A DNA stretch of 64,000 bases, taken from positions 1,015,812-1,079,811 of the forward strand of contig JBBCGY010000001.1 of NCBI GenBank assembly GCA_037200005.1, in the 5' to 3' direction. Under the pieces are notes generated by a model that worked only from the letters and a program-made list of their open reading frames with translations, searched no databases and had not been told where the DNA came from. A program made the position numbers and the translations under genes. Source of the DNA: Alphaproteobacteria bacterium. Its GTDB lineage: Bacteria; Pseudomonadota; Alphaproteobacteria; UBA9219; RFNS01. Shown here in pieces: positions 24,871 to 52,002 of the stretch. Positions within the stretch are counted from its first letter, which is position 1. Each line of letters opens with the position of its first letter.

Positions 24871-25959
24871 ATGACCCCCGAAACCGGCATCCTGACTATC
24901 GACCTCGCCGCCGTCGCGGCGAATTACCGGCTGCTGGCTGAAAAAGCGCCGGGCAAGCAGATCGCCGCCTCCATCAAGGCCGACGCTTACGGCCTTGGCA
25001 TGACTCGCGTCGCGCCTGTCCTCGCGGAAGCCGGCTGCGGGTTCTTCTATGTCGCCAACATGGCCGAGGCGCTGCCATTGCGCGCAATTCAGCCCGAGGC
25101 AAAAATCGCCGTGCTGCACGGGCTGGAGGCCGGTGATTGGGATACCGTGAGCCGCAACCGGCTGATCCCCGTCCTGCCCCATCTCGGCGCGATCCGCGCA
25201 TGGCGCGACGCGGCGCTGGAGCGGCAGGTCACGGCGCCGGTCATCATCTTTCTCGATACCGGCATGAACCGGCTTGGGCTTGGCCCCGACGATGTCGCGC
25301 AGCTTCTCGACCATCCCGAATGGCTGACCGGGCTTAAGATCGAATTTTGGTTAAGCCACCTCGCATGTTCCGACGAGCCGGAAAATCCCATGAACGCGGC
25401 CCAGCTTGCCGCCCTGACGCAATATCTTATCAAGCTGCCCGCCGCGCCGCTCAGTTTCGCCAATTCCGGCGGCATATTTCTCGGCGCGCAATACCATTTC
25501 GACCAGGTTCGCCCCGGCGCGGCGCTCTACGGCCTCAATCCCACGCCCGATCAGCCCAACCCCATGCGCCCCGTGGTTCGGCTCGAAGCGCCGATTCTCC
25601 AAGTCCGCGACGTGGTGCCGGGCATGACCGCCGGTTATGGCGCGACCTGGCGCAGCAAACGGCTTGGCAAACTGGCCGTCTTGCCTGTAGGTTACGCCGA
25701 TGGTTTAATGCGCTCATTGAGCAATCGGGGACATGTTTCCTTCGGCGGTCATCTGGCGCCGGTTGCCGGGCGGGTATCGATGGATCTTGTCACGGTTGAT
25801 GTCACCGGCGTGCCGGAGCCGCTGCGCCAGATCGGCGCGATGGGCGAGTTGATCGGCGCGGCGCGCGAAGTCGAGACGGTGGCGCGCGAAGCCGGTACGA
25901 TCGGGTACGAAATCCTGACGAGTCTGGGTTCTCGTTATAAGCGGGTTTACAAGGAATGA
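24871..25959 (+). CDS. alr: Alanine racemase
   Basis: Makes D-alanine for peptidoglycan. 362 residues; PLP lysine Lys36 in SIKADAYGLG and the opposite-face catalytic Tyr256 in TAGYGATW are present, as are FLDTGMNRLG and GRVSMDL. The ATG is chosen as first in frame; 51 bases separate it from dnaB. Overlaps mlaE by four bases. Confidence 0.95.
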   Translation: MTPETGILTIDLAAVAANYRLLAEKAPGKQIAASIKADAYGLGMTRVAPVLAEAGCGFFYVANMAEALPLRAIQPEAKIAVLHGLEAGDWDTVSRNRLIPVLPHLGAIRAWRDAALERQVTAPVIIFLDTGMNRLGLGPDDVAQLLDHPEWLTGLKIEFWLSHLACSDEPENPMNAAQLAALTQYLIKLPAAPLSFANSGGIFLGAQYHFDQVRPGAALYGLNPTPDQPNPMRPVVRLEAPILQVRDVVPGMTAGYGATWRSKRLGKLAVLPVGYADGLMRSLSNRGHVSFGGHLAPVAGRVSMDLVTVDVTGVPEPLRQIGAMGELIGAAREVETVAREAGTIGYEILTSLGSRYKRVYKE

Positions 25960-26744
25960 TGACATTCACGAATAATCCCCTCGCGCTGCTCGGTCGCAGC
26001 TCCGTCGAATTCCTTCAATCGACCGGACGGTTCGGCGCTTTTCTGGCCGTATCCGTCAGCCATGTGCTGCGCCCGCCCTATCATGGGCGGCAGATTGTCC
26101 GGCAGCTCATCGATATCGGCTATTATTCCCTGCCCGTGGTGGGATTAACGACCCTGTTCGCGGGCATGGTGCTTGCGCTGCAAAGCTATACCGGCTTCGC
26201 GCGCTTCAATGCCGAAAGCGCGATCGCCAATGTCGTGGTGCTTTCCATCACGCGCGAGCTTGGGCCGGTCATGGCCGGGCTGATGGTGGCGGGCCGGATC
26301 GGCGCGGCCATCGCCGCCGAGATCGGCACGATGCGCGTCACCGAACAGATCGACGCGCTGTCCACACTCTCGGCCAATCCGCACAAATATCTGATCGCGC
26401 CGCGCCTGATCGCCGGAACCCTGATGCTGCCCCTGCTGGTGCTGGTCGGCGACATCATCGGCGTCTTCGGCGGCTTTCTGGTCAGCGTGTACCGCCTCGA
26501 TTTCAATGCCGCCACCTATCTGCGCCAAAGCTGGGATTTCGTGGAATTCATGGATGTGTTCTCCGGCCTGGTCAAAGCGGCGGTGTTCGGCTTCATCATC
26601 ACGCTGATGGGCTGCTATCATGGATTCAACTCGCGCGGCGGGGCGCAAGGCGTCGGCGCGGCGACCACGAACGCCGTGGTTTCCGCCTCGATCATGATCC
26701 TGATCGCCAACTATATCCTCACCGGCGTATTCTTTTCCAAATAG
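25956..26744 (+). CDS. mlaE: Phospholipid-transport ABC permease MlaE
   Basis: 262-residue membrane protein of the Mla system that moves phospholipids between the inner and outer membranes. About five hydrophobic helices; family blocks VVVLSITRELGPVMAGLMVAG and ARIGAAIAAEIGTM are seen in near form (REVGPVM/ GRIGAAIAAEIGTMRV). Directly followed by mlaF. The binding protein mlaD is not adjacent. Confidence 0.92.
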   Translation: MMTFTNNPLALLGRSSVEFLQSTGRFGAFLAVSVSHVLRPPYHGRQIVRQLIDIGYYSLPVVGLTTLFAGMVLALQSYTGFARFNAESAIANVVVLSITRELGPVMAGLMVAGRIGAAIAAEIGTMRVTEQIDALSTLSANPHKYLIAPRLIAGTLMLPLLVLVGDIIGVFGGFLVSVYRLDFNAATYLRQSWDFVEFMDVFSGLVKAAVFGFIITLMGCYHGFNSRGGAQGVGAATTNAVVSASIMILIANYILTGVFFSK

Positions 26745-26748
26745 AGCC

Positions 26749-27528
26749 ATGAACGCAGCATCGCCAAAAATAGAACTCAAGGATGTCAAAAAATCCTTCG
26801 GCTCCAAAAAGGTGCTGAACGGCATCGATCTTGCCGTGGCGCCCGGCGAGTCTCTCGTCATCATCGGCGGCTCGGGCACCGGAAAATCGGTCACGCTGAA
26901 ATGCATCCTCGGCCTCCTGCGCCCCGATAGCGGCAGCATCGCCGTCGACGGCGAGAAGACGACACGGCTTTTCGGCAAGGCGCGAGACAAGCATATGAGC
27001 AAATTCGGCATGCTGTTCCAGGGATCGGCGCTGTTCGACTCCCTGCGCGTATGGGAGAATGTCGCCTTCAAGCTGGTCCAGGAACAGCGCGTGAAGGGCC
27101 AGGAAGCTCACGATCTCGCCGTCGAGAAACTGGCCGCCGTCGGCCTCGGCGCGGAAGTCGCCGACCTGTTTCCCGCCGAACTTTCCGGCGGCATGCAAAA
27201 GCGCGTGGCGCTCGCGAGAGCCATCGCGTCGAAGCCGGAGATTATCTTCTTCGACGAGCCGACCACCGGCCTCGACCCGATCATGGCCGATGTCATCAAC
27301 GACCTGATTGTCAAATGCGTGCGCGACCTCGGCGCGACTGCCTTGTCGATCACCCATGACATGGCCAGCGCCCGCAAAATCGCCGACCGCATCGCCATGC
27401 TCTATGAGGGCAAAATCATCTGGCAGGGGCCGCGCTCGGAAATCGACAATTCCGGCAATGAATATGTCGATCAATTCATTCACGGCCGCGCCGACGGGCC
27501 GATTAAGATGCAGGTCAAGAGACTGTAA
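26749..27528 (+). CDS. mlaF: Phospholipid-transport ABC ATPase MlaF
   Basis: 259-residue ATPase. Walker A GGSGTGKS (40-47), signature LSGGMQKR, Walker B IIFFDEPTTGLDP and the H-loop SITHDMAS are all present. The signature with GGMQKR rather than GGQRQR is typical of MlaF. Four bases after mlaE, clearly one unit. Confidence 0.93.
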   Translation: MNAASPKIELKDVKKSFGSKKVLNGIDLAVAPGESLVIIGGSGTGKSVTLKCILGLLRPDSGSIAVDGEKTTRLFGKARDKHMSKFGMLFQGSALFDSLRVWENVAFKLVQEQRVKGQEAHDLAVEKLAAVGLGAEVADLFPAELSGGMQKRVALARAIASKPEIIFFDEPTTGLDPIMADVINDLIVKCVRDLGATALSITHDMASARKIADRIAMLYEGKIIWQGPRSEIDNSGNEYVDQFIHGRADGPIKMQVKRL

Positions 27529-27665
27529 GGCCTCGCGAATTATTAACAAAACCTTACCTCCGCATATTCGCACTGCTAAAATTAAGCAGGAATTAGTTTC
27601 ATCCAGGCTATGGTATAATTGAATTTCAAACGTGATTGATTGTGCGGCATGCCGGAGGACTGGCA

Positions 27666-28670
27666 ATGACAAAATACAGCACGATGGGCCGGACGGCTTT
27701 TGAAAGCCCCTCTGCGCTTAGCCCGCTTTCCATCGAAGGCCGCAGCCTCGATCCTCAATCCATGGCGCTGCATATCGCCCATCTGCACGACCATTACGCG
27801 TCGAGGCCCGTCGCCGAATTGCAGAGAGATATCACCAAGGCCGCCGGAATCGACATGGCGGGACAGGGGCAGGACTCCGCCCTGGCGCGCGCCGGTCAGG
27901 AAATCGCCCAAACCCTGGACACACAAGCGGCGGCGACGCCACTTAACAAGAATCCTTATCACGATGTCCAGCATCACAGGGAAGTGATGATCAATGAATT
28001 CGTCTGCAGGCAAATCACCGACAAGCTGACCGGCCAGAAATCCTCGAAGGAAGATTACGCCGCGGGCACGACCTTGGCGGCGGGACATGACAACGGGCAT
28101 CCTGGCGGCTCGAACGATTTTCCGTTTCAATTCGAGGAGATGGCTTTCAAAACCATGAAGCCCGTTCTCGACAAGCATGGCGTGAGCCCGAAAAATCAGG
28201 ACAAGGTGCATATCGGCGTGCTGTCGACCGACCCGATCAACAAGAAACTACTGGATGCCGATCCGCGCTATGACGCGCAGGCCCGCCACGACGCCCAAAT
28301 TCTCGGCGCGGCGGATGTGCTGGGCAGCCTGGCCGTCACCATCGACAAGGCTCACAAGGCCACGCATAATTTCGCGGACGAGCTGGAGGCTCGCGGCAAG
28401 GCCCCCATCGACAGCGAAAAATATCAAAGCTTCGCCACCCACGCGAAGCTCGGCCCGCCCGCGCTCGACGCTTTCTGGCAGCCGCAAAGGGAAAAAGTGA
28501 CGCAGGGAGTCTTGCGCCAACTCAAGGCTGAAGAAGCGGCCAAGCCGGTCGCAGCGCAAGCGGCAACTCAGGACGCGCCGCCGCCCGCAAGCGCGAGAAA
28601 CAATTCGCCCCCGGCATCCAACCGGACGCCGCCTTCATCGCGCAAAAATTTGCCCAACGCGACGATGTAA
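27666..28670 (+). CDS. HD-type protein with class I cyclic nucleotide phosphodiesterase-like ligands
   Basis: 334 residues. YHDVQHH (His99, His103), GHDNGHPGGSN (His141, Asp142) and GAADVLGSL (Asp217) reproduce in order the acid histidine and metal ligands of eukaryotic PDE catalytic domains (YHN..H, HDxDHPG..N, ADL). The signature pattern fits except for Asn at its third position. The C-terminal 60 residues are a low-complexity Pro/Ser/Asn tail. The ATG at 27666 has GGAGGA upstream. Cyclic nucleotide hydrolysis is an inference; a Q/N nucleotide-recognition residue is not evident. Confidence 0.7.
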   Translation: MTKYSTMGRTAFESPSALSPLSIEGRSLDPQSMALHIAHLHDHYASRPVAELQRDITKAAGIDMAGQGQDSALARAGQEIAQTLDTQAAATPLNKNPYHDVQHHREVMINEFVCRQITDKLTGQKSSKEDYAAGTTLAAGHDNGHPGGSNDFPFQFEEMAFKTMKPVLDKHGVSPKNQDKVHIGVLSTDPINKKLLDADPRYDAQARHDAQILGAADVLGSLAVTIDKAHKATHNFADELEARGKAPIDSEKYQSFATHAKLGPPALDAFWQPQREKVTQGVLRQLKAEEAAKPVAAQAATQDAPPPASARNNSPPASNRTPPSSRKNLPNATM

Positions 28671-28696: not shown

Positions 28697-29032
28697 TCAG
28701 AGGCTCAATGGCGCGAATTTTTGGGGCTTGGCCTTTACCGGCTCATGCGGAATTCTTTGAGTCTTGGGCGCTGCTTCCGCTGGCGCAGATCCCACAGGGA
28801 TGATCGGCGAACCTTGAATTTTTGGCCCCTGCGGCGCTTCCGCGGCGGGCATTTTTGCCGTAACCGTCCCTGGTTCCGCAATCTGCGCTAAACGCTGTAA
28901 ATTGCCTGGGATGGTAGGCGCTTGCGATGAGGGTATGGCTTCGGCTTGAGCTAGCGCGATGCCTTCTCTTACTTTTTTGGCGGTCGCGCCCAACTCCATG
29001 TAAGCATTCATATCGCGTCTTCTGCCAGCCAT
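28697..29032 (-). CDS. Short Pro/Ala-rich protein, unknown
   Basis: 111 residues from the ATG at 29032, chosen for the GGAG six bases upstream; an ATG at 29044 adds four. N-terminal helix (MELGATAKKVREGIALAQAE), then a disordered Pro/Ala/Lys region. No family known. Convergent with the phosphodiesterase-like gene and may interact with it, though nothing shows this. The 237 bases upstream of its start hold no gene that I can see. Confidence 0.55.
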   Translation of the reverse strand: MAGRRRDMNAYMELGATAKKVREGIALAQAEAIPSSQAPTIPGNLQRLAQIAEPGTVTAKMPAAEAPQGPKIQGSPIIPVGSAPAEAAPKTQRIPHEPVKAKPQKFAPLSL

Positions 29033-29281
29033 GGAGTTCTCCATCCTTATGAAATATTTTTCTCTCTATAACTTGATAGTGTAACCCGCACTGGTAGAAG
29101 AATCGTTAATCTTCCCGCTGCCGGAAACCGTCCACGCGTTGCTGCGTTACGACTTGAAATAGCTCGTCAAAATATTCATTTCGCTATCGAAAACGTCTTT
29201 TTAACCCCTTCGTTATAGATTGGGAAAGAAGACCTTTACGCGCGATTTGTATTTAATATTTCATGAACGGAGATTGCGCCG

Positions 29282-29875: not shown

Positions 29876-30991
29876 TTAAGGCTGAGGCCGGGGCAGCGGC
29901 ATAGCCGATACCGCGCCATTCATTGCGCCCGCGCTTTTGCAGTCTCCCGTAACCTTGCTCCACAATGTTTGGGAAATGCCGAGCTTGACGAGCGCCTTAG
30001 CGCCGCCGATCAATGCGATGTCCACGCACATGATTTCGACTTTTTCTTCCGGAGCCAGCGTCCGGTTTTCCATGCAGTCGAAGCCAAAAGGCATGAACTC
30101 TTTATCGCATGCTCTCGATTTGCCGGACAGGCCGCGGCTGGTTTCGGTGAAGAGACGCTTGATTTGATGGCCTATCCCCGCGAATGCAACTTTCTGAAAT
30201 TCCTGGGGTTCGATATGCGCCTGAGCCAAGGCGTTATTGACGAATTCCGGCGGCACGAAAGCGTAATTCCAGCCCGAAGCGGTTAGGGCGGCCTCGACCG
30301 TATTGCGGATTTCATAGCTGTTTTCCTTGCCGGTCGCGGCAAGCTGCTTGGCCGTATTGAAGCTGTCTCTGGCCTCGAAAGCCTCGGAAGCTCTTAAAAC
30401 CTTGCGAAACTCTAGGCCGTCGATCCCCGTCGCCGTCAAACCTCCGGCGCGATTGAGGATTCTGTCTATATTTCGAAATTCATGGCGGGCGGAAATATTG
30501 CTGGCGACAAGGCTTTCGGCCTTCTTGAACGACGCCTTGACGCCATAGATAGCGCCCGCGCGGTCATAGGCGGAGAATGCGTTCGGTTCGATGCCGATGG
30601 CTTCCAATCCTCCGGCTTGCGCCGCGTTCCAGCAGGCGCGTTCGATTTCCGGCGCATTGGCATGCCCTAAATCGGCGAGATCTTTTGCCCGGCTATACCA
30701 CCAGCGCGCCTCGGTGCTGAAATCATCGGCATAGCGCTTTTCCCGCGCGAGAATTCTTGTTTCCATACTATCCGTGCCGGGCGGACAGCCGTCATAATTC
30801 GGACGAGAAGACGGGATGGATTGCAGGGTGCCCCCCGACGAAAAAGAATCGCCTGAAACGGAGATAGGATCGTAGGAATTATATCGAAGAGGATTCTGGT
30901 GCGTGATCGCATAACCGGCGATCACAATCAGCGCCGTAGCCCCGACACAATGGGCGCGTATGTTCGACTTGCTGTTGACCGGCTCTTCCAT
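29876..30991 (-). CDS. Membrane-anchored protein with three internal repeats, unknown
   Basis: 371 residues. One hydrophobic segment at about 15-30 anchors it, or serves as an uncleaved signal. Residues 115-285 hold about three tandem 55-residue repeats: (AP)EIERACWNAAQAGGLEAIGI, (RH)EFRNIDRILNRAGGLTATGI and (SY)EIRNTVEAALTASGW. A C-terminal hydrophobic helix follows (VDIALIGGAKALVKLGIS). Convergent with the hydroxylase and its stop is adjacent to that stop. No family recognised. Confidence 0.65.
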   Translation of the reverse strand: MEEPVNSKSNIRAHCVGATALIVIAGYAITHQNPLRYNSYDPISVSGDSFSSGGTLQSIPSSRPNYDGCPPGTDSMETRILAREKRYADDFSTEARWWYSRAKDLADLGHANAPEIERACWNAAQAGGLEAIGIEPNAFSAYDRAGAIYGVKASFKKAESLVASNISARHEFRNIDRILNRAGGLTATGIDGLEFRKVLRASEAFEARDSFNTAKQLAATGKENSYEIRNTVEAALTASGWNYAFVPPEFVNNALAQAHIEPQEFQKVAFAGIGHQIKRLFTETSRGLSGKSRACDKEFMPFGFDCMENRTLAPEEKVEIMCVDIALIGGAKALVKLGISQTLWSKVTGDCKSAGAMNGAVSAMPLPRPQP

Positions 30992-45991: not shown

Positions 45992-47215
45992 ATGAACCGG
46001 ATCAGCATCGGCGAAAAAATCTATTCCCTTGAATGGCTGCGCGATCAGGCATCGGCGGGGCAGAACGTGCTGCGCCGCGCGCATCAGGGCCGGATCAAGC
46101 CGCTGTGCCTGTGCGGGAATAAGCAAGTTGCCAAAGAACTCTATGTCGCCAAGCGTAATTTTTATTACCTGGCGAGGATGCCGGGAACAGGCAAGCTGCA
46201 TGCGCCGTGGTGCGATTTTTACGGCGACGCCGATGGCGGGCCTGGATCCAAATCGCAACCGGCGATTATCGAGAAAGAGGACGGCAGGCTTGACGTCAAT
46301 CTGTGGAGTCCGCTGACGCGGCCCGCGAAGACAACCGCACCGTCTTCAGAAACAAAATCACGACAGATAGAAAGGCCGGGCGTCTCCAGAGCTTCGATTA
46401 CGCTGCTCGGACTGCTGTATAAGCTGTGGCAGGACGGCAATCTGCATGTGTGGTATCCCGTGCGCAAATACGCGCGCACGATCAACACGATCCATAAATC
46501 GCTGAACGAGATCGCGGCTTACATGGATATAGGCGATGACGGCCTTCAAGACCGGTTCATAGTCACCAAATACCAGGATAGCTGGCCCGCCAGCGAAGCG
46601 AAAACCCGTGAAGCCATCGACGCGATCACTAAAGGCAAAGACAGCGCCGCGATCCTGATCGGCGAGCTTGAGGACTGGCGACCATCGCAAAAGGAACAAG
46701 GCGGCGCGGGCCTTAAAATCCGTTATCTGAAAGACTGCGTATGGATGGGCAAGGAACTGGCGGAGAGGATCGAAACGAGCTTCCAAAGAGAGAAAGCCTG
46801 CATCGACGACAAGAACCAGAAGATCATGGTCATATGCACGGTATTCCAAAACGGCGTCACCCTGAACGCCGATGACGCGGCACTGATGCGCACCAGCAAG
46901 GAATATATTCCGGTGGAGTCTTCCTATGAACTAGAGGTCACGCGCCGGCTTATCGAACAGGAGCGCAAGTTCAAGAAGCCGGTGCGCATGGATGAAAACG
47001 ATCAGAGGCCGGACTTTATTCTCCTGGATACCGATCCCAACTGGTTCATGGAAGTCTTCGGCATCGACAATGACGAAGCCTACACAGCCAGGAAACACGA
47101 AAAGCTCGCCGCCTATCAACAACAAGGCATCCCATGCTGGTCATGGGAAGCGACATCGAGCAAAACCATCCCGGCATTCCCGGCCCCCTCCCCCGAAACG
47201 CTCGACGAAGAATAA
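45992..47215 (+). CDS. DUF1173 family protein
   Basis: 407 residues. PLCLCGNKQVAKELYVAKRN followed by YLARMPGTGKLHAPWCDFYG is the N-terminal pattern of DUF1173, with Cys residues suited to a zinc site. DUF1173 proteins are usually carried by integrative and plasmid elements; the function is unknown. A C-terminal region with RRLIEQERKF and PDFILLDTDPNWFMEVFGID resembles a nuclease core with acidic residues, which is an inference. First gene of the accessory island. Confidence 0.8.
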   Translation: MNRISIGEKIYSLEWLRDQASAGQNVLRRAHQGRIKPLCLCGNKQVAKELYVAKRNFYYLARMPGTGKLHAPWCDFYGDADGGPGSKSQPAIIEKEDGRLDVNLWSPLTRPAKTTAPSSETKSRQIERPGVSRASITLLGLLYKLWQDGNLHVWYPVRKYARTINTIHKSLNEIAAYMDIGDDGLQDRFIVTKYQDSWPASEAKTREAIDAITKGKDSAAILIGELEDWRPSQKEQGGAGLKIRYLKDCVWMGKELAERIETSFQREKACIDDKNQKIMVICTVFQNGVTLNADDAALMRTSKEYIPVESSYELEVTRRLIEQERKFKKPVRMDENDQRPDFILLDTDPNWFMEVFGIDNDEAYTARKHEKLAAYQQQGIPCWSWEATSSKTIPAFPAPSPETLDEE

Positions 47216-47423: not shown

Positions 47424-47509
47424 TCTGCGGCGTTGTGCCGGTCTGGCAAGTCAAGCGGCGAGATGGCAAAGCGCGTGACAGAATGGCGAGATGTTTGCCG
47501 AATTGCGCG

Positions 47510-47573
47510 TTGACGCCGGAGCGCAGCCATGCGCGGCGAGCGCCGCCGATGGGCGGGAGCCTCCCGGCGTCAA
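47510..47573. repeat. Second stem-loop before the Rhs gene
   Basis: TTGACGCCGG (47510-47519) pairs with CCGGCGTCAA (47564-47573), with an inner GCGGCG/CGCCGC helix. Together with the cloverleaf it makes most of the 530-base gap before the Rhs gene structured. No other feature seen in that gap apart from the Rhs ribosome site GAGGAGA at about 47737. Confidence 0.7.
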
Positions 47574-47748
47574 AGATAATCCGCGCGGAATGAGCCCGAC
47601 GCGGCGGATTTATCCTACCCATTTCTACATAAGCTTACTTTTTTCAATGGCCGGACGGCCGTATCGGGCGGATTTGGATTTGCCGCGCCGCGTCCATGAT
47701 AGAGCGGCCCTCCCCCGGAGCATTTCGCGCCGGGTTGAGGAGATAAGC

Positions 47749-50700
47749 ATGAAAAAGATAACGACGAGAAATTGGGTAGGAAGGGCGTTGGCCTTGCTGC
47801 TGATGGCGTGCATGGCAGTCATCGCGGTGCTGAGCGCCTGCACGGGCGGCGGCAATCGCGCTGCGCTGCCGAAGGAGAGTGTTGGCACGACGACGCAGGC
47901 CATCACGGGCATGACTGGGCTTGCGCCGCTGACGGCTGGCGTTGATTACTACGAATACGGCAATCTGTGTGTTTCGACATCCGAGGCGGCGGTGGCGCAA
48001 TGCGAGTTTCAGTCGATCTGCGTTCCCACCTATCTGCCTTCGTCATTGTTCATGCCGCCTCCCTCCGGCCCTTGCACGGGTAGAACAGGCTATGCCGACC
48101 AGAATTGCAGCAGCTGCATCAATGTTGCGTTCATGCATAACTATGCAGGAACGACCTGCCCTAGCGGGTTTATGGCTAGCGGCGTGTGCAAGGATCCGCC
48201 GGATGGCCAAGAAATCATCGACACGAAGGTGGAGGATGAGAAGATTCATGATTGCGGCGGAAACGACGAGCCACTAAGTCCGGGGCAGTCATTGATGAGC
48301 GGGGAGCAGCTTGCCGGTGTCGGCATGTGCGTGCCGAATGCGCATAAGATGCTGGCGAGTCTGAATCTGGTGGATACGCCGGTCGGCTACACGCCGGCGA
48401 AGGGGCCGGATATGCATATCCGGCTGACTTATAATCAGAGAGAGCCGGTTCCGGCGACCGCGCCGAACTACGGCAATGTCGGCCCGAAATGGAATATCAA
48501 CTTGACGTCCTATGTGCAGGACGACCCCTCGGTGGCGGGCAGCAAAGTGACGCGTTACGCGCGAGGCGGCGGCAGCGTGCTGCATAATGGCTACCCCGAT
48601 TATGATAGCGGCACGGGGAACTGGATTCCGGAGAAGCAATCCGGCGCGGTGCTGAAGCGGTTTCCCGCGACAGGAACGCCGGTCACGTCCTACACGCTGA
48701 CTGAGGTCAATGGCACGGTGCAGACCTTCAGCAAATTCGACGGCGCGAGCACGTATCCGCGCCGTGTGTTCCTGACCAGCATCACCGACCCGCAGGGCAA
48801 TGCGGTGACGTTCACTTACGACAGCACCTATCTGCGGGTGAACAGCATCACCGACGCGACGGGACGGACGACGACGCTCGGCTACACGGTGTCGGGGAAA
48901 CCTCTGCTCGTCTCGAGCATCACCGATCCGTTCAGCCGCTCGGCGACGCTGAGCTATGACGGCAGTTATCGCCTCGCGTCGATTACCGACGTGCTGGGGA
49001 TTACGTCGTCGTTCACTTACGACACGACGGATACGAGCTTCATCACGACGCTGACGACGCCCTACGGCAATAGCACCTTCGATTACGGAGGCGACTATAC
49101 TGCGGGAACGCGCTGGCTCGAACTGACCGACCCGGAGGGCAAGACCGAGCGCGTGGAGTATCGCGCGAGCACGGCAGGCATGTCGAACAGCGACGGTAGC
49201 GTGCCGAGCGGCATGACGATTGTGAATTCCGACTTGTCGAAGCGAAACACGTTCTATTGGAATAAACACGTCTTTGGCCTCTACGGCACGGACGACAGCA
49301 AGGCGGAGGTGACGCACTGGCTGGACGCGGGAGGCAACGCGCCCTCGCCGATGGTGCAGGCGCTCAAGCCCGCGCTGGAAAACCGCATCTGGTATAACTA
49401 TCCAAGCCAGAGCGCGGGCGACAAGGAAGGCACGCTCGCCGCGCCTACGGCGATGGGGCGATTGCTCGCGAGCAGCGTGACGCAACTATCGACGGCGACG
49501 TACAACAGTCTCGGCAAGGTGCTGACGGCGACCGACCCGCTGGGGCGGACGTTGAAATACACCTACGCCGGGAACAATATCGACCTGACGACGGTGGAGC
49601 GGAAAATCTCGTCGACGCCGACTTACGCGACGCTGGCGAGCTTCGGCACTTACACCAACCACCTGCCCGCGAGCTATACCGACGCATCGGGCCGGGTGAC
49701 GAACTACGCCTATAACGGCGCGGGGCAGCTTATCTACGCGACGAACGCGCTGAACCAAACCACGTTCAACGAGTACGACGCCTACGGAAGGCTGACGCGG
49801 GTGACGGTGCCCTATGCCGTGGCGTTCGGCAGCGTGACCTACGGCACGACGAACGCGCTGGCCGCGACGAAAGAGAGCTACAGCTATGACGGCTATGACC
49901 GCGTGGGCACGCTGACGGATTCGGAGGGCCGGGCCGAGACGTACGGCTACAACGCGCTGGATATGCTGACGCTGGTGACGTATCCGGACAGCACGACGGA
50001 CACTTACACCTATGACGGCACGAAGAAACTGAATCTGAACAGCCGCACCGACCGGCTCGGACGGACGACGAGCTACACTTACGACGACAACCGGCGGCTG
50101 CTCTCGCTCACCGAGCCGATTACCAGCGCGCCGCTCACCCGAACGACGAGCTACACCTATTACGACAATGGCGCGCTGCATACGCAGACGGACGCGAACA
50201 GCAACGTCACGACCTGGAGCATCGATATCGAAGGGCGCGTGACGGCGAAGAGCTTGGCGGACTCAAGCGCCGAGAGCTACGCCTATGAATCCGAAACCAG
50301 CCGCCTGCGCACGGTGACGGACGCGCTGGCGCAAGTGAAGACCTATACATACGATGTCGCCGACGAACTGACCGGCATCGGCTACACGAACGAGGTGAAC
50401 AGCACGCCGGACGTGACGTTCGCCTATGACACATGGTATCCGCGCCGCACGAGCATGGTGGACGGCATCGGCACGACGGCCTGGAGCTACATTGCGCCGG
50501 GCACGGACGGGGCATTGCAACTGCAGACGGAGAACGGGCCGTTCGCGTCGAACGACTCCATCACCTACGCCTACGATGCGCTGGGGCGTGAATCCTCCCG
50601 AACAGTATCCGGCGGGAATGAGAGCCTGACCTACGACACGCTGGGGCGGGTTGCGACGCATGTGAACAGCCTGGGCACATTCACCTACGGCTACAACGGC

Positions 50701-52002
50701 AGCACGAGCCAGGTGACGACGCGAACGCTGAACGGCACCAGCATCGGGACGACCTGGGCCTACGACACGAACAGCAACGACCGCCGCCTGACCAGCATCA
50801 CGAACGCGAACGGCCTCAGCGGCACCAGCAAGCCGAGGAACTACGCCTACACCTGGAGCGGCGGCAATCCGTACAACGTGACGAGCGTGGCGGAGAGCAA
50901 CGGCCCGTGGACGGGACAGACATGGAGCTACACATACGACCTGTCCGACAGGCTGACGGCGGCAACGACCGGCAGCCCGACGAGCTGGAACTTCGCCTAT
51001 ACGCGGGACAAGCTGGACAACATCACCACGCTAACCCGAAGCGCGGGCAGCGCTGGCGGCGGGTGGACGAGAAGCGCGAACAACGTCAATCAACTCACCG
51101 GAGCCGGGGTCCCAACCTACGACGCGGCGGGAGAGGTGACGGACGATTACAAGATGTACCGCCAGAGCTGGGACGCGGAACATCGAATGATAAAGGCGGA
51201 GTACAAGACCAGCTGGGGCGCTGGCACCTACACGAGCCAGAAGACGGAGTTCAAATACGATGGTCTCGGAAGGCGCACGGTTGAAACTGAATACGACAAC
51301 ACGGGAGCGTTCGCCTATGAATGGCACTTCGCATGGTGCCAAGACGAAATCTGCCAAGTGCGCTGGTCGTGGGGCGAGACAGTGGCGAGACGCTACTTCC
51401 CGGAAGGGCAATACGCGCTCGACACCGGCAAGAAGCATGTGCACATGCCGGACATGCTCGGTTCGGTGCGCGACATCGTGAATGTGAGCACGAGCGCGGT
51501 GGACTTCAGCATCGACTACGGCCCCGGAGGCGAGAGCATCCGCACGAACGGCAGCGTGTACCCGGACCACAGACTTGCCGGGATGTTCCAGGCCGGGCCG
51601 TACTTCAACTACCAAACGCGCTATCGCATCCTCGACCCGTTCTATCTGACGTGGCAGAGCCGCGACCCGATTGGTGAGAACGGAGGTATCAATCTGTTTG
51701 CGTACACGGGTGGAAGGCCGACGATGAAGACGGATAGGTTGGGGCTTAGTGATGACCCAGTAAAAGATATAGCAATGTGCCAAGCATTAGGAGGGGGATG
51801 GTGTAAGCCTACCGAGCCCCCATCAAAGGAAGAGTTCGATTGTGCGTTCCATTGTGCCATTCAAACAGCTCCTCTTTGCGCTTATGCTATGATGTTTGGC
51901 CCTTGTGGTCGCGCCCTAGGCTTGGTATGTCAGGGAGGAAGAGCGCTCTATTGCTCTGAGGTTGTTTGTGCCGATAAGTCTTCTGATAAGGGTAAAGAGT
52001 AG
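47749..52002 (+). CDS. Rhs/YD-repeat lipoprotein, polymorphic toxin
   Basis: 1417 residues from the ATG at 47749 (GAGGAGATAAGC upstream). A lipoprotein signal ends VLSAC, so the protein is exported and lipid-anchored. A Cys-rich segment (about 60-150) is followed by many YD repeats (YDALGRESSR, YDTLGRVATH) that form the Rhs shell. The core ends RDPIGENGG ... TDRLGLS near residue 1333, where the usual cleavage motif is DPxGL; here it reads DRLGL. The last 85 residues are a Cys-rich tip of lower GC. No VgrG, PAAR or Eag gene is nearby. Confidence 0.9.
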   Translation: MKKITTRNWVGRALALLLMACMAVIAVLSACTGGGNRAALPKESVGTTTQAITGMTGLAPLTAGVDYYEYGNLCVSTSEAAVAQCEFQSICVPTYLPSSLFMPPPSGPCTGRTGYADQNCSSCINVAFMHNYAGTTCPSGFMASGVCKDPPDGQEIIDTKVEDEKIHDCGGNDEPLSPGQSLMSGEQLAGVGMCVPNAHKMLASLNLVDTPVGYTPAKGPDMHIRLTYNQREPVPATAPNYGNVGPKWNINLTSYVQDDPSVAGSKVTRYARGGGSVLHNGYPDYDSGTGNWIPEKQSGAVLKRFPATGTPVTSYTLTEVNGTVQTFSKFDGASTYPRRVFLTSITDPQGNAVTFTYDSTYLRVNSITDATGRTTTLGYTVSGKPLLVSSITDPFSRSATLSYDGSYRLASITDVLGITSSFTYDTTDTSFITTLTTPYGNSTFDYGGDYTAGTRWLELTDPEGKTERVEYRASTAGMSNSDGSVPSGMTIVNSDLSKRNTFYWNKHVFGLYGTDDSKAEVTHWLDAGGNAPSPMVQALKPALENRIWYNYPSQSAGDKEGTLAAPTAMGRLLASSVTQLSTATYNSLGKVLTATDPLGRTLKYTYAGNNIDLTTVERKISSTPTYATLASFGTYTNHLPASYTDASGRVTNYAYNGAGQLIYATNALNQTTFNEYDAYGRLTRVTVPYAVAFGSVTYGTTNALAATKESYSYDGYDRVGTLTDSEGRAETYGYNALDMLTLVTYPDSTTDTYTYDGTKKLNLNSRTDRLGRTTSYTYDDNRRLLSLTEPITSAPLTRTTSYTYYDNGALHTQTDANSNVTTWSIDIEGRVTAKSLADSSAESYAYESETSRLRTVTDALAQVKTYTYDVADELTGIGYTNEVNSTPDVTFAYDTWYPRRTSMVDGIGTTAWSYIAPGTDGALQLQTENGPFASNDSITYAYDALGRESSRTVSGGNESLTYDTLGRVATHVNSLGTFTYGYNGSTSQVTTRTLNGTSIGTTWAYDTNSNDRRLTSITNANGLSGTSKPRNYAYTWSGGNPYNVTSVAESNGPWTGQTWSYTYDLSDRLTAATTGSPTSWNFAYTRDKLDNITTLTRSAGSAGGGWTRSANNVNQLTGAGVPTYDAAGEVTDDYKMYRQSWDAEHRMIKAEYKTSWGAGTYTSQKTEFKYDGLGRRTVETEYDNTGAFAYEWHFAWCQDEICQVRWSWGETVARRYFPEGQYALDTGKKHVHMPDMLGSVRDIVNVSTSAVDFSIDYGPGGESIRTNGSVYPDHRLAGMFQAGPYFNYQTRYRILDPFYLTWQSRDPIGENGGINLFAYTGGRPTMKTDRLGLSDDPVKDIAMCQALGGGWCKPTEPPSKEEFDCAFHCAIQTAPLCAYAMMFGPCGRALGLVCQGGRALYCSEVVCADKSSDKGKE
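51013..51747 (+). repeat. Rhs core-end repeat, expressed copy (735 bp)
   Basis: From the codon of LDNITTLTRSAG to the GLG/L end of the core motif. It matches 52364-53098 over the same 735 bases without gaps, in the same coding phase. Many third-position differences, about 11 amino acid changes. Confidence 0.92.

Follow-up and report, generated by a model that had tools for sequence, protein, structure and literature searches.

A bacterial protein resembling class I cyclic nucleotide phosphodiesterases and its patchy proteobacterial family

The window analyzed here, a 64,000-nucleotide stretch of an alphaproteobacterial genome, encodes a 334-aa class I phosphodiesterase (PDE)-like protein, P0001, at 27666..28670 on the forward strand, in an open frame with an ATG start and a stop codon. 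We consider P0001 to be probably a metal-dependent, class I-like cyclic nucleotide PDE of a patchy proteobacterial family, most likely one that removes the cAMP made by a partner cyclase. Its activity, metals, and substrate we infer from conserved residues, a predicted fold, and the gene neighbors of its relatives. P0001 is class I-like rather than a formal member of class I, because it fails both the Pfam cut-off and the strict PDE signature. Class I PDEs are major drug targets; if the assignment is true, the class would be extended to bacteria, providing small single-domain enzymes for study, hints at the origin of the eukaryotic class I PDEs, and a testable bacterial cAMP-removal step.

The catalytic residues of P0001 occur in three contexts resembling those of solved PDEs. 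A preliminary description of the sequence had assigned H99, H103, H141, D142, and D217 to a class I catalytic core, and all five are numbered and placed as it claimed, in Y98-H99-DVQ-H103-H104, H141-D142-NG-H145-PGGS-N150, and A216-D217. The first context, YHDVQHH (residues 98-104; 27957..27977, forward strand), aligns to PDEs, and both of its key histidines are present in 19/19 rows of A2, our 19-member family alignment; by the roles of known PDEs, we take H99 to be the general-acid position and H103 a metal ligand position. Within HDNGHPGGSN (residues 141-150; 28086..28115, forward strand), H141, D142, H145, and G147 are found in 19/19 rows and N150 in 17/19, with H141 and D142, like D217, presumably occupying further metal ligand positions. 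D217, within AADV (residues 215-218; 28308..28319, forward strand), is likewise present in 19/19 rows and aligns to the AD of PDEs (5vyd). Alignment to solved PDEs thus finds the metal ligands H, H, HD, and D and the general-acid His in order in P0001. Beyond the residues originally pointed out, T188-D189 (28227..28232, forward strand) lines up with the (A)TD of PDEs, T188 being present in all 19 rows and D189 being Asp in 17 with gaps in the remaining 2, and E239 (28380..28382, forward strand; 19/19) lines up with the conserved Glu (KEF) of PDEs in 5vyd. The full set of positions invariant across the 19 rows comprises H99, H103, H141, D142, H145, G147, E157, T188, D217, E239, and F256. N150 and D189 are not absolute, since both vary within the 15-row alignment A4, where the former is Asn in 12 rows and Ser in 3 and the latter Asp in 9 and Glu in 6.

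P0001 departs from the strict PDE signature at position 3 alone, where it carries Asn. This residue, to which attention had already been drawn, is real and occurs in P0001 only among 27 family members; the whole signature, searched with a pattern that also allows C at position 3, is carried by 5 of the 27. A short C-terminus, also noted earlier, turned out not to set P0001 apart, as its relatives end at about the same place. The purine-contact Gln of PDEs is not confidently placed in the family, the sequence alignments of the family profiles to PDEs ending before it. One candidate for the position is Q274 (28485..28487, forward strand), a Gln in P0001 that is replaced by Asn in 14/14 other rows of A4 and that could contact the purine. 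In a relative from Thiocapsa (L040), an Asn lies 31 residues past the conserved Glu; we take the purine Gln of PDE4D to lie 30 residues past its own, a spacing that is suggestive only for placing the position. Plant CAPE proteins carry Asn or Thr in place of the purine Gln, and the one from liverwort is reportedly active (PMC8115329), so that an unplaced purine Gln does not exclude activity.

Taken by itself, the sequence of P0001 would not convince, and the case for a PDE rests on the family. The Pfam PDEase_I profile (PF00233) gives P0001 14.9 bits, under its curated cut-off of 24.8; a PF00233 search of P0001's own genome returned no match, P0001 falling below the threshold of that search; and P0001 alone reaches a PDE chain in the PDB at E 0.8. 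A profile built from 14 relatives, with P0001 left out, scores P0001 at 88.5 bits (E 2.5e-25 at Z=10000), while 5000 shuffled versions of P0001 gave no listed match to the same profile; the motif match is therefore more than chance. An hhalign comparison of A1, the alignment from the window's order, with alignment A5 gave E 1e-52, a value that is not independent, as P0001 is in both. Searched against the PDB, the A2 profile matches 151 chains at E<=0.01, of which the best 60 are all PDEs, and its best alignment (5vyd, E 1.4e-10) spans profile positions 47-272, from before H99 to past E239, with the TD, the metal Asp, and the Glu included. The A5 profile matches 138 chains at E<=0.001, the best 60 of which are again all PDEs. 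The A1 profile, made from the order's four sequences, reaches 41 chains at E<=0.01; every one is a PDE, the lowest E is 1.9e-7, and most of the alignments cover the region of the first motif. In the A2 alignments, the H, H, HD, H, TD, D, and E of the family profile appear in the same order as in solved PDEs. At E<=0.1, PDEase_I matches 18/19 members (best 4.2e-9), and a relative from Zavarzinia clears the curated cut-off with 28.8 bits. The claim that such domains are rare in bacteria also holds: the PDEase_I cut-off was passed in 1/398 Pseudomonadota genomes, by a protein that is itself a member of P0001's family.

Structure prediction points in the same direction. An AlphaFold2 model of P0001 computed with a 15-row alignment has a mean pLDDT of 86.0 and a pTM of 0.81. 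Foldseek placed class I PDEs in all of its best 50 rows (TM by query length 0.37 to 0.53), with a best E of 1.9e-3 at probability 1.00 and none below E 1e-3. When the same candidates were aligned with VIA-align 2, the best 50 rows for the P0001 model were class I PDEs at Z 20.3 to 19.6, including PDE2A (Z 20.3, 3.5 A over 257 residues) and PDE4D (Z 20.0, 3.1 A over 240 residues); the tool gives Z about 14 as the top value usually reached by largely helical models that lack a clear counterpart. Identity between P0001 and class I PDEs over the structural match is 10-16%. The model of a Thiocapsa relative (pLDDT 89.2) reaches Z 24.2 to PDE7A, at 3.1 A over 255 residues. The predicted fold of P0001 is thus the all-helical PDE catalytic fold, with nearly the whole domain matched, rather than the unrelated fold that would have spoken against the assignment; for the ligands, whose failure to cluster would also have spoken against it, the check consisted of the sequence alignments.

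The family is proteobacterial and patchy. Counting P0001's own genome each time, relatives were found in 5/33 genomes of the window's order, 16/385 genomes sampled from the class, and 7/398 sampled from the phylum, the three lowest of the seven phylum matches (E 4.6e-6 to 4.1e-5) being left out of follow-up; 0/3 other genomes of the window's own family carry a relative. A first scan of named genomes with A1 yielded 421 stretches and no relative, and a scan with alignment A3 yielded 14 loci, including ones from Zavarzinia, Thiocapsa, Methylibium, Burkholderiales, a Methylococcaceae MAG, and a 'Micavibrio sp.' MAG. One genome of the class carries a gene identical to that of Zavarzinia marina. 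In the protein of 1106 aa encoded by the 'Micavibrio sp.' locus (L044:5956-9273, the same as L013/L024), a PDE-like repeat occurs twice; its second copy has CH instead of the HD metal pair and looks dead. Even within the window's order, identity is only 23-28%. In a tree of 27 members, from which we omitted copies of included loci (L032, L035, L036, L038, and L044), a fragment (L045), and L028 to L031, P0001 has the longest end branch (2.18), which makes its place unsure; it is a fast-evolving member of the family. The order's five rows require two changes on this tree, and a single clade is not supported. The PDE gene adjoins genes for DAHP synthase II and NAD synthase in one genome of the window's order (G017) and in two of another order (G267 and G348; the NAD synthase of G267 was identified by reading only), and a glutamyl-tRNA synthetase-type gene in G053, G184, and G281 (by reading only for locus L062 of G184). 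These neighborhoods suggest that the class inherited the gene long ago and that it was lost many times. In a further genome (G011), a histidine-phosphatase-like ORF, recognized by reading only, lies just 3' of the PDE gene on the same strand (L055:5048-5743).

The gene neighbors of relatives connect the family with cyclic nucleotides. Among 24 PDE loci, whose genes were listed with a simple ORF caller and whose neighbors were in part Pfam-scanned, at least 6 have a cyclase or Crp partner. At L051 and L052, a gene for a GAF-PAS-class III cyclase lies directly upstream of the PDE gene on the same strand; at L043, a CHASE2-class III cyclase ORF lies directly downstream, an arrangement shared by L037 as judged from reading the protein rather than from a Pfam scan. 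At L053, which is not among the six, a cyclase lies about 9 kb off in the same region. In two Thiocapsa loci (L040:5965-7539 and L042:5000-6805), the PDE region continues in frame, with no stop, into a cNMP-binding domain and a Crp helix-turn-helix, an arrangement that may represent a sensor destroying its own ligand; the junction contains an internal Met, at which the Crp part might start separately. At the genome level, we tested 20 of the 23 carriers found, leaving out three weak ones, and detected a class III cyclase (PF00211) in 13 of them. The 7 carriers without PF00211 are the five of the window's order together with G132 and G133, such that outside this order 13/15 carriers have a class III cyclase. 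These counts leave an enrichment of cyclases in carriers unproven, the comparison with non-carriers having been made only inside the window's order.

Known PDEs use two metals, a water bridged between them, and a general-acid His. By analogy, P0001 would hold two metals through H103, H141, D142, and D217; the metal-bridged water would attack the cyclic phosphate, and H99 would give a proton to the leaving O3', yielding a 5'-NMP. In the relatives, the enzyme would remove a cyclic mononucleotide, most likely cAMP, produced by the partner class III cyclase.

The genome that encodes P0001 presents a different picture. Class III cyclases (PF00211) are absent from it and from 33/33 genomes of the order, and neither a class I cyclase (PF01295) nor a CYTH cyclase was found in it. 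The doubt about the substrate raised in the preliminary description was justified for P0001. The genome encodes one cNMP-binding protein, of the Crp/Fnr type, in which no cAMP-pocket motif was seen when we read it against the pattern that we take to mark such pockets. Given no cyclase and no cAMP-pocket motif, another substrate source or a changed substrate has to be considered: in this bacterium an unrecognized cyclase or the surroundings of the cell may supply the cyclic nucleotide, or the enzyme may have switched to a different substrate. On balance we lean slightly towards cAMP or cGMP as the substrate of P0001 itself; these remain the likeliest candidates given its undamaged catalytic set and the evidence from the wider family.

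The most serious alternative is a different substrate in this lineage: P0001 would still be a class I-like PDE but would act on, for instance, pGpG, a cyclic dinucleotide, or a 2',3'-cyclic nucleotide in place of cAMP or cGMP. We think this unlikely: it would fit the missing cyclases, the Crp-like protein without the usual pocket motif, and the 9 GGDEF matches in the same genome, but relatives outside the order have class III cyclase neighbors or run on into a cNMP-binding domain, and the cyclase search covered class I, class III, and CYTH only. (The last two GGDEF matches are abutting pieces in different frames, at G000:C1:1673096-1673561, representing a frameshifted gene or a sequencing error.) Less plausible again is that P0001 is an HD-superfamily phosphohydrolase of a general kind, without a particular link to class I PDEs. 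HD-GYP and other bacterial HD phosphohydrolases do share HD superfamily metal chemistry with P0001's family; Pfam HD (PF01966) matches 8/19 members and HD-CE 5/19, and the PDEase_I scores of other bacterial HD proteins, which span the first 46 positions, are similarly weak. However, the profile and fold matches of P0001's family extend across almost the entire PDE domain, the TD, D, and E positions included, whereas a control profile built from four bacterial HD proteins (L069, L070, L072, and L075) lacks a full-length PDE match, reaching PDEs at E 0.014 at best over about 45 residues and stopping after the HD motif, with exportin and PPR proteins mixed into its lower matches. Six HD proteins (L069, L070, L072, L073, L076, and L078), 291-347 aa long and encoded in large alphaproteobacterial genomes, were rejected as relatives, scoring 14 to 20 bits and lacking the GxxN, TD pattern. 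P0001 itself matches neither HD_5 nor any other HD profile (Pfam, E<=1) and contains no GYP sequence.

Its long branch and the Asn at signature position 3 could instead mark P0001 as a decaying or catalytically dead protein kept for binding only, a reading that we consider improbable, as P0001 retains all family-invariant catalytic residues in an open frame and its model is a confident one. Finding PDE-like motifs in a bacterium might also bring to mind a eukaryotic PDE gene acquired by recent transfer. This is very hard to reconcile with nearest relatives that are bacterial (among the non-eukaryotic genomes searched), identities of 23-28% even inside the order, and the DAHP synthase II and NAD synthase neighbors common to two orders, which point to old inheritance in the class. 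A phage, plasmid, or viral origin was rejected, as no relatives of P0001 were found in viral contigs, plasmids, or phages, none of the A3 alignment in viral contigs, and none of L011 in plasmids. The best PHROGs match of P0001 is a phosphohydrolase at 13.6 bits only, and matches to DUF746 (14.9 bits, 34 residues) and NCBIfam SCO2207 (10.6 bits vs a cut-off of 250) were dismissed as chance.

A class I-like PDE in a bacterium stands apart from the described distribution of these enzymes. A 2025 review confines class I PDEs to eukaryotes (PMC11988041), and class III is described as the prokaryotic PDE type (PMC1431542); our literature search found no report of a bacterial class I PDE family, which, with subscription journals mostly outside its coverage, is weak evidence of absence. 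The eukaryotic class I domain (PF00233; PDE2, PDE4, PDE7, PDE8, and PDE9) shares with the family the all-helical fold, predicted in the latter (Z 20 to 24), and the order H, H, HD, H, G, TD, D, E; in contrast to it, P0001 is bacterial, lies below the Pfam cut-off, has Asn at signature position 3, and has no confidently placed purine Gln. The pairing of class III cyclase and class I PDE seen in relatives of P0001 also occurs in plant CAPE (PMC8115329), but within one eukaryotic protein, whereas the bacterial family has separate neighboring genes or a PDE-Crp-like region. Bacterial CpdA-type class III cAMP PDEs (PMC4222275) have the same job as that proposed here with an unrelated metallophosphoesterase fold, and no metallophosphoesterase profile in Pfam or NCBIfam matches P0001 at E<=1. 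A speculative and rather unlikely extension is that Proteobacteria possess complete cyclase/class I-like PDE/Crp circuits, that the eukaryotic class I PDE domain descended from this family, possibly via the alphaproteobacterial ancestor of mitochondria, and that the window's lineage kept the PDE and lost the cyclase, perhaps destroying cyclic nucleotides from outside.

Within its own genome (2.36 Mb, 95.12% complete), the P0001 gene is single copy. A likely ribosome-binding site, GGAGG (27654..27658, forward strand), precedes the ATG at 27666 by 7 bases. Genes for mlaE and an ABC ATPase (25956-27528) lie on the 5' side and unrelated genes on the 3' side, and no neighbor within the 64-kb window suggests a partner. 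Two reverse-strand ORFs, of 115 aa (28697-29044) and 371 aa (29876-30991), have no Pfam, NCBIfam, or PHROGs match. Farther along, the window contains an RHS-repeat protein of 1503 aa (47491-52002), adjoining a DUF1173 protein at 45992-47215.
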